40,650 nt of DNA from Chloroflexota bacterium (GTDB lineage: Bacteria; Chloroflexota; Anaerolineae; Anaerolineales; Anaerolineaceae): the NCBI GenBank assembly GCA_021789855.1, contig JAJYIW010000005.1, positions 1 through 40,650 on the forward strand, written 5' to 3'. The notes under the pieces were generated by a model. It did no database searches. It was not told the DNA's origin and worked only from the letters and a program-made list of their open reading frames with translations. Positions 17,214 through 22,253 of this stretch are shown in pieces (positions within the stretch are counted from its first letter, which is position 1; the number at the start of each line of letters is the position of its first letter). The position numbers and the translations under genes were made by a program.

Positions 17214-17759
17214 TCAGATGGAAAGCGAAATGCCGCGCAAGCGGTAGTAGACGGTCGAAACCACCAGAAAAGTATACAGCACCTGGAAGGCCAGGGACAA
17301 CAGGACAGAGAGGTTTGCCCCCCCTGCCGGGTTACTGAAGAAGATACCTAAGAGCAAGATCAGAATACGTGGCAGGCTTCCCAAGCCAGCCGCCGTAGCA
17401 GATACCTGGTAAAGGAGCTTACTGCGGTGCTTGCGGGTGACCATGCGGATTCCCTCTGCGATAATGACGCCGGCCACTGGGGCGATAAAAATGGTAAAAA
17501 AGCCCAGCGCCCCGGCGATTATGCTGCCAATAAACCCTAAAACCCCGGCGATTAAGATGGCGATGGGATAATCGATCCACTCGGCTGTGTCGAACGTCTT
17601 TTGTTGAAGGCGCACGCATTCTTTGCAGCGGTAACCGGTGGGCGTCAGGACTGCACATTCCGAGCAGATGGGCTTATTACAACGGTTGCAGCGCAAGTTG
17701 GTTTCGCGCTGGGGATGGTTGGCGCAATACATCACTGGGGTTGAATTATCATCGGTCAT
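17214..17759 (-). CDS. B-box zinc-binding membrane protein
   Basis: The 181-residue protein begins with a B-box-type zinc module (C12, H15, C24, C27, C32, C35, and a further C45/C48 pair). It is followed by about four hydrophobic segments between residues 63 and 172. Similar bacterial proteins are annotated as B-box zinc finger or rhomboid-like zinc proteins without known function. The ATG at 17759 overlaps the nadK stop in an ATGA, so the genes are translationally coupled. The frame is open further upstream inside nadK, but the family-like N-terminus starts here. The zinc domain could tether partners at the membrane; that is inference. Confidence 0.82.
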   Translation of the reverse strand: MTDDNSTPVMYCANHPQRETNLRCNRCNKPICSECAVLTPTGYRCKECVRLQQKTFDTAEWIDYPIAILIAGVLGFIGSIIAGALGFFTIFIAPVAGVIIAEGIRMVTRKHRSKLLYQVSATAAGLGSLPRILILLLGIFFSNPAGGANLSVLLSLAFQVLYTFLVVSTVYYRLRGISLSI

Positions 17760-18628
17760 CGAACAGCACCCGTGAGTGGATTTTGTTGCAGGTGGGGGGT
17801 AAGATTGCGATAAAAATAGTCTGGACCCTGAAAACGGATCATATTCAACGAATGGCTGTTGGCGGTCACATGGACCTGGTCGCCGTCTACCATGGGAACA
17901 GGCGCCTGGCCATCCACGCTCAACACGGCTTCGTGGCTGGTGTTGACGGTAATGGTAACCGAAGACCCTTCTGATAGGACGATAGCCCGATCCCACGAGA
18001 TATGAGATGCTACCGGGATGATCAGGATGTTACGCAGTTCAGGGGGCAAGATAGGCCCGCCGGCGGCCAGAGAATAGCCGGTTGAGCCGGTGGCGGTTGA
18101 AGCGATCAGGCCATCGGCCACGAAGAGGGTGAGATAATAGCCGTCCACGTAGGCGGTAAGCTGGACCGGCCGGACGATCTGGCCCCGGCAGGCGATCACC
18201 TCGTTGAGTACATCCCAGGAGCCTAGAAGGGTATCCTGGCGAAACAACTCGGCGCGCAGCATCATGCGGTTTTCCAGGCGATAATCGCCATTAAGCAGGC
18301 GGGGGATATATTCTTGCCATTCGTTACGTTTGATTTCGTAAAGAAAGCCGAAATGTCCCATGTTGATCCCCATGAGAGGGATGTTTCGTTTTGCGCAAAG
18401 ATGGCCTGCCCGGAGCATGGTGCCATCTCCGCCCACGGCGATCACGGTATCAAATTCGCCCTGAGCAACCCGTTGTACGAGAGCTTCATCCTGAATCTGG
18501 CCTTGCTCAACCCACAGGCCGCCTTGCCTGAGCCTATCAACCACCAGGCTGCCCTCAATAGCTGCATCTTCCAGGGTGGGATGGGTGAGAACGGCGATGC
18601 TCGCCGGTGGTGGATTCGAATAAACCAT
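17756..18628 (-). CDS. nadK: NAD kinase
   Basis: NadK phosphorylates NAD to NADP. The 290-residue protein has the catalytic GGDGT at 66-70, the GINMGHFGFL segment, and ATGSTGYSLAAGGPI in the C-terminal beta-sandwich domain. In many bacteria nadK lies next to recN, as here with one gene between. The ATG at 18628 is seven bases after a perfect TATAAT, so besides operon read-through it probably has a leaderless transcript of its own. Confidence 0.96.
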   Translation of the reverse strand: MVYSNPPPASIAVLTHPTLEDAAIEGSLVVDRLRQGGLWVEQGQIQDEALVQRVAQGEFDTVIAVGGDGTMLRAGHLCAKRNIPLMGINMGHFGFLYEIKRNEWQEYIPRLLNGDYRLENRMMLRAELFRQDTLLGSWDVLNEVIACRGQIVRPVQLTAYVDGYYLTLFVADGLIASTATGSTGYSLAAGGPILPPELRNILIIPVASHISWDRAIVLSEGSSVTITVNTSHEAVLSVDGQAPVPMVDGDQVHVTANSHSLNMIRFQGPDYFYRNLTPHLQQNPLTGAVR

Positions 18629-18648: not shown

Positions 18649-19161
18649 TTAAACCAGGCGCTGATCACAATGCTGCCGGTAGCCACAATGAGAACAACGC
18701 CCGGGTTGGTCGTGCGACCGGTCGGCATCTCCGCGCCTTTCTTGGGCGCGCACCTGGGCTAACAGGTCGATTAACGCTGATTCAAGCTCGGGGGTGTAAT
18801 CCACGGCGAAGGTCTGGTTGGCATAATGTAAAATGCCGTAAGGCGGGCGTTTCCCCAGGGTGTGTTCAACCAGGCGGCAATAGGCAGCCAGTTGGAAAAT
18901 GTGGTTATCGTAAGGCTCAGAGGGCGCGCGGCCGGATTTGACTTCAACCGGGATGGTAAAGCCGGCCTGTTCCACCAGGTAATCCGGCTTTCCGGTCAGG
19001 TTCAATGTGGGATCGAACAGGGGCTTTTCAACCGCCCCCCAGGCACGCGTGTCGGCATAGATGATACGTCCCCCTGGCAAGCCGGTGGCCTTTCGTTGCC
19101 GGCTGGCCTGCCAGAAAAGGACCAACGCTGCCAGGAGCAGAAGGAGAGCCAGGATGTCCAT
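18649..19161 (-). CDS. Cas4-like PD-(D/E)XK nuclease, C-terminal half, membrane-anchored
   Basis: The 170-residue protein starts with one transmembrane helix (about 3-17), followed by the nuclease core of the Cas4/RecB superfamily: D60 in GKPDYLV, E73 and K75 in VEVKSG, and Q90 to Y94 in QLAAY. The C-terminus has CSHC and a further cysteine (C156, C159, C165), which match the last three Fe-S ligands of Cas4. The first cysteine and the motif-I histidine are missing here and are found in the preceding gene. The ATG overlaps the upstream stop as TAATG, so the two halves are coupled. There are no cas1, cas2 or repeats nearby, so this is not a CRISPR gene. It should cut or trim DNA at the membrane if paired with its partner. 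Confidence 0.75.
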   Translation of the reverse strand: MDILALLLLLAALVLFWQASRQRKATGLPGGRIIYADTRAWGAVEKPLFDPTLNLTGKPDYLVEQAGFTIPVEVKSGRAPSEPYDNHIFQLAAYCRLVEHTLGKRPPYGILHYANQTFAVDYTPELESALIDLLAQVRAQERRGDADRSHDQPGRCSHCGYRQHCDQRLV

Positions 19162-19400
19162 TAATGGATCACCTGCTGTGTGCCATAGGCTGCCAGGGAG
19201 ATCAGGGCTGCCAGCAATAGCAGCCAGGCAGCCCCGCGCAGTAACCTGGCAAACCAAACCCTCCGGCCATGCTGGCGGTGCAATACACTTCCTGCGGCTA
19301 ACTCGGCCTGGTTGCTGGATTCGATCCCCTGGTTTTGATACCACCAGGCGCGCTGACAGTAGACGAACAAGCCTATTTCAGAGGCCCGGATGTTCCGCAT
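19161..19400 (-). CDS. Cas4-like nuclease, N-terminal half, membrane-anchored
   Basis: The 79-residue protein begins RASEIGLFVYCQRAWWYQ, the typical Cas4 opening, with C15 as the first Fe-S cysteine and H41 in GSVLH as the motif-I histidine. It ends in one transmembrane helix (about 52-72). In ordinary Cas4 the sequence would continue into the nuclease core, but here translation stops and the core is made from the next gene. The first 23 bases overlap the translin gene. The two helices, at the end of this chain and the start of the next, could form a hairpin that brings the halves together. A simple frameshift is unlikely because both breaks fall at a membrane helix and the junction is a coupled TAATG. 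Confidence 0.72.
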   Translation of the reverse strand: MRNIRASEIGLFVYCQRAWWYQNQGIESSNQAELAAGSVLHRQHGRRVWFARLLRGAAWLLLLAALISLAAYGTQQVIH

Positions 19401-20052
19401 GATCCGAATTAATGGCTTCCAGGTCCGTGAGGCGGGCTGCCAGGGATGCCAGGCTGTTTTCCAATTGCTGCTCCCTCAGGCTGATGGTCAGGTCGCCGCG
19501 GGTGCGCTCCAGAATGCCACGCACCAGGTCTGTCTGGCGGCGCAGGCCAGAGGTGATGGCATCTGGATAATCCAGGGTCACCAGCATGGCATAGATGTCA
19601 TCCATATAGCCCAGCAAGCGTTCCGCCTCTTGAGAATATCCCTGTCTCAAAATATCCAGGCAGCGACGCCGCAATTCACCCACTACTTCCGCCAGGCCGT
19701 TGAGATAGGTGGATTCAACCATCCTCAGGTCTTCCGGAGATGGCAACGGCCGGTTTTCGATCAGGGTGCAGGTGATGGTCGCCTCAACAAACTCCTTCAA
19801 TGCGTCCTGGGTATAGCCGGCGTAATACAAGTCGGGATAATCTTTTAACCCGGCCTGGATGCTGGAGACCAACTGGTGAGCCTCATCGAGGTGCTGTTGG
19901 GCCAGGTCTGACTGATCGCGGTGGATCGCGCGGATCGCATTGGCTGAATGGCGTGTGACCAGGCGAGCCTGGGCCAGGGCCTGGTCACGTGCGGCGGTGC
20001 GGGCGTCAAACGACAGGCGGATCTTTTCGATAATCGGTTCTAAGTTCTGCAT
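19378..20052 (-). CDS. Translin family protein
   Basis: The 224-residue protein is largely helical and shows translin/TRAX signatures in order: ALKEFVEATI (E87, E90), YLNGLAEVVGELRRRCLD (116-133) and the C-terminal DLVRGILERTRGDLT (175-189). Eukaryotic translin and TRAX form an octameric RNA-binding ribonuclease (C3PO), in which glutamates of the EFVEA-type helix are catalytic in TRAX; both glutamates are kept here. Bacterial members are rare and their role is unknown. It starts 3 bases after the DUF3467 gene and its end overlaps the Cas4-like half by 23 bases, a strong sign of joint expression. Confidence 0.85.
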   Translation of the reverse strand: MQNLEPIIEKIRLSFDARTAARDQALAQARLVTRHSANAIRAIHRDQSDLAQQHLDEAHQLVSSIQAGLKDYPDLYYAGYTQDALKEFVEATITCTLIENRPLPSPEDLRMVESTYLNGLAEVVGELRRRCLDILRQGYSQEAERLLGYMDDIYAMLVTLDYPDAITSGLRRQTDLVRGILERTRGDLTISLREQQLENSLASLAARLTDLEAINSDHAEHPGL

Positions 20053-20055
20053 AGG

Positions 20056-20382
20056 TCATTTTTCTGTGGGCGGGTCCGGCGGCCGGATGCCCCGGAAGAG
20101 GTCGCTGGCGAGCGAGGTATCTCCAGGCAGGCGGATCTCGCCAAAGCTGGCTTCATAACGATTAAGGTTTTCCTGGAACGCACTCAAAAACAGCTTGGCG
20201 CTCAAGGGGGTCATCGCCACCCGTGCGCAGACCCGGGCAGACGCATCACCGGGCAAAAAATGAGCAAAATCCAACACGAGCTCAGTAGGCGAATGGGAGA
20301 TACGCACGAGATTTGCATACGTGACTGGCAAGTCTGCTGGAACCTGGAAGGGCGGTACGGAAGGCGGTTGAGCAGAGGTCAT
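20056..20382 (-). CDS. DUF3467 family protein
   Basis: The 108-residue protein has the DUF3467 pattern: TYANLVRISHSPTELVLDF, then MTPLSAKLFLSAFQENLNRYE and FGEI. The function of the family is unknown. A proline-rich head and tail flank the domain. It lies 11 bases after ssb and 3 bases before translin. Confidence 0.82.
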   Translation of the reverse strand: MTSAQPPSVPPFQVPADLPVTYANLVRISHSPTELVLDFAHFLPGDASARVCARVAMTPLSAKLFLSAFQENLNRYEASFGEIRLPGDTSLASDLFRGIRPPDPPTEK

Positions 20383-20393
20383 GGCTTTTACGC

Positions 20394-20831
20394 CTAGAAG
20401 GGAATCACGTCCTCATCCACATTGGGCCGGCCGCCGAATCCCTCGCCTTCTTCCGTGCTGCTGCTGCCAGACTCACCACCTTCGCCCCGGCTGGAAAGGA
20501 AGCGGACGGTACTGGCCATGACATCGTAGGATGCCCCAGCGGTTCCATCCTTTTTGGTGTAGGTCTTGGGGCCTCCCGTTGCCAGGTCAGGGGAAAGACG
20601 ACCTTCGATCAGCACTTTGCTGCCTTTTTTCAGATACTGGTTGCAGGATTCAGCCTGCTTGCCCCAGACTGAGATCCGGAACCAGGCAGTTTCCTTTACG
20701 GTCTGCCCGTTGTTGGACGTATATTGGCGCGAGCTGGCTACTGAAAAGCTGGTGACTGCCTGCCCATTAGGCGAATAGCGCATTTCGGGATCGCGGCCCA
20801 GGTTTCCCACGATGATGATGGTGTGCCACAT
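20394..20831 (-). CDS. ssb: Single-stranded DNA-binding protein
   Basis: The 145-residue protein has an OB-fold domain (about 1-108) with the family opening IIVGNLGRDPEMRYSPNGQAV and WFRISVWGKQAE, then a Gly/Ser/Glu-rich tail. The tip is DEDVIPF, close to the DDIPF consensus that recruits repair enzymes, with Val in place of one Asp. AAAGGA precedes the ATG by eight bases. It is the first gene of the ssb-to-recN operon. Confidence 0.95.
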   Translation of the reverse strand: MWHTIIIVGNLGRDPEMRYSPNGQAVTSFSVASSRQYTSNNGQTVKETAWFRISVWGKQAESCNQYLKKGSKVLIEGRLSPDLATGGPKTYTKKDGTAGASYDVMASTVRFLSSRGEGGESGSSSTEEGEGFGGRPNVDEDVIPF

Positions 20832-22106: not shown

Positions 22107-22179
22107 CGGGGTGTAGCGCAGTTGGTAGCGCACTGCGTTTGGGACGCAGGGGTCGGCGGTTCGAGTCCGCCCACCCCGA
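22107..22179 (+). tRNA. tRNA-Pro, anticodon UGG
   Basis: The 73 bases fold fully: acceptor stem CGGGGTG with CACCCCG, a D arm with a four-base GCGC stem, an anticodon stem CTGCG with CGCAG around loop TTTGGGA (anticodon TGG), a five-base variable loop, and a T arm GGCGG with CCGCC around TTCGAGT. The discriminator is A. CCA is not encoded. A run of five T follows at 22181-22185 and may end transcription. Confidence 0.96.
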
Positions 22180-22253
22180 CTTTTTCAGGCCTGCTCTGGT
22201 CAGGTCATTTTGGGCGGAAGTTTCAGGATGGTTAACAGACCCGATTAAAGCCT

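Follow-up and report, generated by a model that had tools for sequence, protein, structure and literature searches.

A conserved Chloroflexota gene pair likely encoding a two-subunit, membrane-anchored nuclease of the Cas4 type

A Cas4-type nuclease is normally one protein. The described Cas4 proteins (DUF83, PF01930), including the type I-C enzyme (PDB accession number 8d3l), SSO0001, and Pcal_0546, are the best structural and profile matches of the gene pair presented here, A and B, and have the same RecB motifs I to III, the same QxxxY motif, and the same cysteine pattern in the same order. Whereas Cas4 is one soluble chain, A and B are membrane chains encoded by separate genes, with the break between motifs I and II, and neither Cas1 nor any other or intact Cas4 can be detected in the 94% complete draft of their source genome. 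In Pcal_0546 and SSO0001, one cysteine from the N-terminal part and three from the C-terminal part ligate the iron-sulfur cluster; some Cas4 proteins can cut without the cluster, whereas for others it is essential (PMC4176176).

The iron-staple domains of AddB, AdnA/B, Dna2, and Exo5 share the same fold and place one cysteine far N-terminal of the three others, to which it is joined by the cluster, as is predicted for A-B. On the other hand, the pieces of these enzymes lie in one long helicase-nuclease chain without membrane anchors. ACE1, an Argonaute-associated Cas4 family protein (PDB accession numbers 9iab and 9iac), resembles the pair as a non-CRISPR member of the family and as a structural match; however, it is a single chain in the PDB entries and is not known to have a two-chain or membrane form. 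Bacterial solo-Cas4 and the A-B pair are alike in that the Cas4-like gene lies outside CRISPR loci, and the survey of Hudaiberdiev et al. (2017) describes monophyletic solo-Cas4 in many Chloroflexi (PMC5704561), which may possibly be chain B. That survey states that all Cas4 proteins hold four cysteines, whereas in A-B these are split over two chains, and its main text makes no mention of a transmembrane (TM) segment, a split, or a partner chain for solo-Cas4. The pair thus meets the definition of solo-Cas4 (i.e., a cas4 gene outside CRISPR loci), while its split and its membrane anchors fall outside that description.

The open-access literature searched yielded no paper describing a Cas4 that is split or located in the membrane, subscription papers and preprints being outside the scope of the search. 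An earlier note, made from the DNA sequence alone, had stated that no described nuclease is known to be built in this way; this is consistent with the same literature, and within that limit the two-chain membrane design is likely undescribed.

The gene pair, its motifs, and its predicted fold

The window, i.e., the whole stretch of Chloroflexota DNA that was analyzed (40,650 nucleotides), contains the pair and its junction at the following positions.

19161 to 19400, minus strand: chain A, 79 amino acids and a stop codon, the N-terminal part of a Cas4-like fold
18649 to 19161, minus strand: chain B, 170 amino acids and a stop codon, the rest of the Cas4-like fold
19159 to 19163, minus strand: the TAATG junction, where the stop codon of A and the start codon of B overlap by one base

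The junction reads ATTAATGG, in which one base is common to the TAA of A and the ATG of B, and a Shine-Dalgarno-like AGGTGA is located approximately 8 nucleotides 5' of the ATG of chain B. Chain A carries Cys15 and His41, the predicted first Fe-S ligand and the motif-I histidine, together with Gly37 and His44, and ends in a TM helix at about residues 55 to 75. Chain B begins with a TM helix at about residues 2 to 20, followed by RecB motifs II and III and the QxxxY motif (Asp60, Glu73-Val-Lys75, and Gln90-x3-Tyr94) and a C-terminal module of three cysteines (Cys156, Cys159, and Cys165). The earlier note had assigned the first cysteine and the motif-I histidine to the first chain, the remaining motifs and cysteines to the second, one TM helix to each half at the break, and a TAATG sequence to the junction. 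All of these assignments held when coordinates, frames, and residues were re-derived, with one strongly hydrophobic 18-residue stretch in each chain, although the exact TAATG is not conserved among relatives. The note had also placed the assembly inside the membrane, and this part failed. The motif positions are in the predicted cytoplasmic portions of both chains, separated from the TM helices by at least approximately 15 residues; the cluster and the active site would therefore form at the cytoplasmic face.

The two halves match complementary columns of the Cas_Cas4 profile (PF01930), as the note had proposed to check. Chain A aligns with columns 3 to 43 of 160 (E = 0.0076, below the cut-off), and chain B aligns with columns 53 to 158 (E = 4.4e-8, score 33.8 against a cut-off of 22.7). 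Chain B also matches PDDEXK_1 (E = 2.4e-9) and comes close to the TIGR00372 cas4 model (63.6 bits, cut-off 65), under whose cut-off chain A falls too, while chain A matches the PADLOC Cas4 model with an E value of 6.8e-5. In the NCBIfam and PADLOC Cas4 models, A and B again cover complementary parts. This complementarity and the invariant motif residues among relatives place the observation far beyond chance. Across A and B, the RecB set of His (I), Asp (II), Glu-x-Lys (III), and Gln-x3-Tyr is complete and 94 to 99% conserved, and so is the pattern of one N-terminal and three C-terminal cysteines, each at least 99% conserved.

The hydrophobic segments are maintained in nearly all of the 163 pairs compared. 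The median Kyte-Doolittle maximum is 2.63 in A and 2.58 in B, with 98% of the chains above 1.6 in each case. The mean net charge is approximately +2.7 to +3 on the nuclease side of each TM segment and approximately 0 on the other side, and only 4 to 5 residues follow the helix of A and 0 to 1 residue precedes that of B. This charge pattern fits a topology, which is inferred, in which A has its N-terminus inside and its C-terminus outside, B has the reverse orientation, and the catalytic parts are cytoplasmic. One-chain Cas4 proteins of the same phylum have 56 to 73 residues from the cysteine to the aspartate, with no hydrophobic stretch there.

The fold was predicted with AlphaFold2 from in-frame relatives in which the stop codon of A was read as a residue, with 21 natural pairs aligned. 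The read-through of one relative (L054) gives one confident RecB-like, Cas4-like fold (mean pLDDT = 88.6, pTM = 0.81), in which an unbroken helix (residues 31 to 77) carries the motif-I histidine and continues into the TM segment, and a second helix (residues 84 to 111) is the TM segment of B. In a PDB search, the best match of this model is the full-length type I-C Cas4 8d3l_I (query TM-score = 0.57, target TM-score = 0.66), with an alignment that spans columns of both halves; Dna2, a Cas4/Cas1 fusion, ACE1, AdnAB, and AddAB are further matches. The A+B sequence profile is likewise colinear with one Cas4 chain, covering residues 10 to 50 and 102 to 201 of 8d3l, including the N-terminal cysteine and the C-terminal cysteine module. 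A model in which the two halves could not meet would have spoken against the pairing, and the fusion does not behave in this way. However, the fusion ties the chains covalently and could favor contact, and the result rests on fold metrics only, without a Cys-Cys distance.

A mean-field DCA of inter-chain coevolution (151 pairs) ranked A6-B93 at the top; this pair reflects Ala-to-Ser substitutions at both positions within a single clade and was therefore not used as evidence of contact.

Conservation and distribution of the two-gene arrangement

The split, which the earlier note had proposed to look for in related Anaerolineae genomes, is conserved. In the family and order of the window, 45 of 61 genomes have chain B, and chain A is a separate open reading frame upstream of B in 41 of 44 loci examined there; of the three others, one ends with its contig (L044), and two have the A gene on other contigs (L016 and L039). 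In the first alignments (39 relatives for A and 43 for B), Cys15, Gly37, and His41 are invariant in A, and Asp60, Glu73, Lys75, Gln90, Tyr94, Cys156, Cys159, and Cys165, among others, are invariant in B. When 160 A and 163 B chains are compared, all ten predicted catalytic and cluster residues are at least 94% conserved: Asp60, Glu73, and Lys75 are kept in 160, Gln90 in 161, and Tyr94 in 155 of the B chains.

Among 400 genomes of the phylum, 138 have a B-like match and 118 have A. After 14 weak, one-chain-like B matches were removed by hand, and without correction for phylogeny, 112 genomes have both chains, 12 only B, 6 only A, and 270 neither. A single family (f41) accounts for most of the genomes with only B, and its diverged A escapes the profile; in one of its genomes (G403, locus L163), the A gene is visible directly upstream of B.

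A single intact chain at this locus in relatives would have refuted the two-chain design, and none was found in the 162 distinct loci having both genes on one fragment. The Cas4 family proper has all motifs in one polypeptide, which is not the case here, as none of these loci is fused and the genes are unlinked in several lineages. The frame relation of A and B is distributed over the three possibilities as 79, 42, and 41 loci, and the spacing varies (44 overlapping, 59 at 0 to 30 nucleotides, 30 at 31 to 150 nucleotides, and 28 longer), with gaps in relatives ranging from -19 nucleotides to more than 1 kb. Seven genomes of family f16, and also G009, G051, and G154, carry the two genes unlinked; they lie 509 kb apart round the circle in the single contig of G263 (family f23) and 887 kb apart in G341 (family f93). 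The two-gene architecture is thus conserved across Chloroflexota. In a quick tree, the cores of B separate from the one-chain Cas4 proteins of the same phylum (SH-aLRT = 92), a topology that is compatible with a single origin of the split, with narrow sampling of the one-chain forms.

Several loci depart from the common form. In one Anaerolineae group (L057, L058, L060, L064, L067, L076, L094, L118, L135, and L143), A and B are separated by a gene for a conserved protein of approximately 210 residues, HEAT-repeat-like by appearance only, and in two distant families a gene that looks L,D-transpeptidase-like by eye occupies this place (L175:509-1450 and L179:713-1486). The B chains of three loci of one family (L170, L172, and L173) lack the Asp and the Glu-x-Lys and keep the cysteines, and appear to be dead enzymes; the A chain of L163 lacks His41. 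These losses indicate that nuclease activity is not needed everywhere. In Ktedonobacteria-like genomes, chain A is diverged and has approximately 40 extra residues.

Genomic neighborhood and plasmid copies

The following other genes were noted in the window.

20056 to 20831, minus strand: a DUF3467 gene and ssb, upstream of the translin-family gene, identified by profile match and synteny
19378 to 20052, minus strand: a translin-family gene (PF01997, E = 1.9e-8), directly upstream of A and overlapping its start
17756 to 18628, minus strand: an NAD kinase gene (PF20143/PF01513), directly downstream of B
17214 to 17780, minus strand: a gene located between those for NAD kinase and RecN, with synteny in 26 of the 42 loci; its membrane protein product starts with a B-box-like zinc finger
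22107 to 22180, plus strand: tRNA-Pro(tgg), with no other tRNA in the window

In the taxonomic order of the window, the conserved cluster is ssb, DUF3467, translin, A, B, and NAD kinase. The translin-family gene, a same-operon neighbor in most of the order, and the NAD kinase gene are each found beside the pair in 34 of the 42 loci having any neighbor match. With these neighbors and no detectable Cas1 in the draft genome, the pair is not of the CRISPR-associated kind that accompanies Cas1/Cas2 adaptation genes. Translin itself gives weak Pfam matches in approximately 50 of the 400 phylum genomes. Translin as an obligate partner was rejected, as its gene is unlinked or undetected in many A-B genomes, with the caveat that the Pfam sensitivity is low. 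In other families, the pair follows an M50 (RseP-like) protease gene, preceded in one of them by a cdsA-like gene, or is found in unrelated housekeeping surroundings, with a dnaX-type gene nearby in one family. The context differs between lineages and therefore indicates no single pathway. The pair occurs in one copy per genome in Chloroflexota and appears to be vertically inherited.

Outside Chloroflexota, a tblastn search found the same pair on plasmids of Paludisphaera borealis (PALBO2), Singulisphaera acidiphila (pSINAC03, typed as conjugative), and Bacillus subtilis (63.6 to 65.2 kb). Matches to plasmids were few overall, and the range outside the phylum rests on them, as the best 80 matches of the genome scan were all titled Chloroflexota or members of it. 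The residues Cys15 and His41 of A and Asp60, Glu73, Lys75, Gln90, Tyr94, Cys156, Cys159, and Cys165 of B stay invariant when the plasmid pairs of Planctomycetota and Bacillus are compared with those of Chloroflexota. The two-part form is kept across the phylum and on plasmids from two other phyla, so that it is a real design rather than a broken gene. In the B. subtilis plasmids, the pair adjoins a Helicase_C_2/DEAD_2 (XPD/DinG-like) helicase gene, with the following arrangement.

L244:12339-15660, and also L241: genes for the helicase and a small unknown protein, then A and B, then an Hfq gene

These plasmids carry Tad-pilus-like genes elsewhere. On plasmid pPL62-2 of Planctomyces sp. SH-PL62, a broken B lies beside an IS701 transposase gene (L243:2337-2836). 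A phage origin was rejected, as no relative was found in viral contigs or in phage records, the latter queried with the B. subtilis B chain.

The single copy and the housekeeping neighbors weakly favor a role in cell maintenance, e.g., DNA repair at the membrane, while the plasmid copies leave a role in DNA transfer or defense possible.

Alternative explanations and the proposed assembly

The one-base overlap and the adjacent reading frames give the locus the look of a local frameshift, a decayed one-chain Cas4 gene, or an assembly error in this genome. This reading is all but excluded: the same split recurs in all 162 distinct loci, the motifs are strictly conserved in both halves, both breaks are at TM helices, and the mixed frames, the intervening genes, and the unlinked copies in several lineages rule out a local event. 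Through programmed frameshifting or stop read-through, at least some of the product could be a single fused chain, and part of the family has short overlaps (ATGA in 27 loci and a -1 type in 10 loci). However, the mixed frames and the unlinked genes make this explanation untenable as well, and intervening genes in gaps that can exceed 1 kb, together with the separate ribosome-binding site of B in the window, also speak against it; we regard it as very improbable.

It is also conceivable that B works by itself or as a homodimer, with A as a regulatory or anchoring partner whose residues are kept for another reason. Both metal ligands, Asp and Glu, are in B, and A is diverged in the Ktedonobacteria-like genomes and has lost its histidine in L163. 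Nevertheless, A keeps exactly the residues that B lacks (Cys15 and His41), it matches the missing profile columns, and the predicted A+B fold (read-through fusion) is confident, so that this reading is unlikely. We have similar doubts about a catalytically silent Fe-S sensor or scaffold in the membrane that merely resembles a nuclease; the three B chains that lost the Asp and the Glu-x-Lys but kept the cysteines support it, whereas the near-complete retention of the catalytic residues across the 163 B chains opposes it. A defensive role, in which the membrane-anchored nuclease attacks incoming DNA, draws support from the plasmids, one of them conjugative, from the DinG-like helicase in B. subtilis, and from the membrane location. 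On the other hand, the Chloroflexota copies lie among housekeeping genes (ssb and NAD kinase, cdsA/rseP-type genes, or, in one family, a dnaX-type gene nearby) and are apparently inherited vertically as one copy per genome, unlike defense islands. On balance, defense seems the less probable reading, and repair or membrane DNA processing is ranked ahead of it on weak inference.

The explanation that we prefer is a Cas4-like iron-sulfur nuclease of the PD-(D/E)XK type, anchored in the membrane, of which A and B form the two subunits (probability of approximately 0.8). The two genes, the strict residue conservation, the placement of the TM segments, and the co-occurrence are shown, as is the fold insofar as it is predicted by a model; assembly, cluster, topology, and nuclease activity are inferred, with no experiment. 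Compared with a one-chain Cas4, a TM hairpin would be inserted between the motif-I His and the motif-II Asp, and the chain break would fall in the short outer loop of this hairpin. Chain A would insert so that its N-terminus stays cytoplasmic and its C-terminus lies outside, and chain B would start outside and cross inward. The two helices would pair in the membrane and bring the N-terminal helices of A, with Cys15 and His41, against the sheet and the C-terminal cysteine module of B. By homology with Pcal_0546 and SSO0001, whose clusters use one N-terminal and three C-terminal cysteines, the fourth cluster ligand must come from A. The earlier note had proposed such an assembly of cluster and active site across two chains; the proposal is supported and is still an inference, since pairing, cluster binding, and DNA cutting are all inferred. 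Because the RecB-like fold, the metal site, and the four-cysteine cluster would be completed across two chains on the cytoplasmic face, we propose that the nuclease would work solely as the assembled heterodimer and solely at the membrane. The likely substrate would be DNA close to the membrane that is single-stranded or has exposed ends, encountered during repair or during the processing of incoming or stalled DNA.

A bolder reading, toward which we lean by a small margin, is that of an obligate two-chain nuclease, in which two single-pass membrane proteins must pair for the [4Fe-4S] cluster and the active site to exist at all. Such a system would be old enough to be found throughout a phylum, would have moved between phyla on plasmids, and would couple DNA cutting to the membrane during DNA entry, conjugation, or repair, with cluster assembly as a possible switch.

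In plasmid records, A is annotated as "hypothetical protein" and B as "PD-(D/E)XK nuclease" or "Dna2/Cas4 domain-containing protein"; the B half of this widespread system is therefore all that annotation pipelines and surveys see. The pair gives a testable role for the solo-Cas4 of Chloroflexota and a natural split nuclease, and cultured carriers exist in Anaerolinea thermolimosa and the B. subtilis plasmid carriers. Whereas the cluster of Cas4, AddB, Dna2, and Exo5 staples distant parts of one chain, that of A-B would join two chains at the membrane interface. If this is true, cluster assembly would be a natural on-switch, and DNA cutting would be tied to a place in the cell, because the staple would hold the two chains together.
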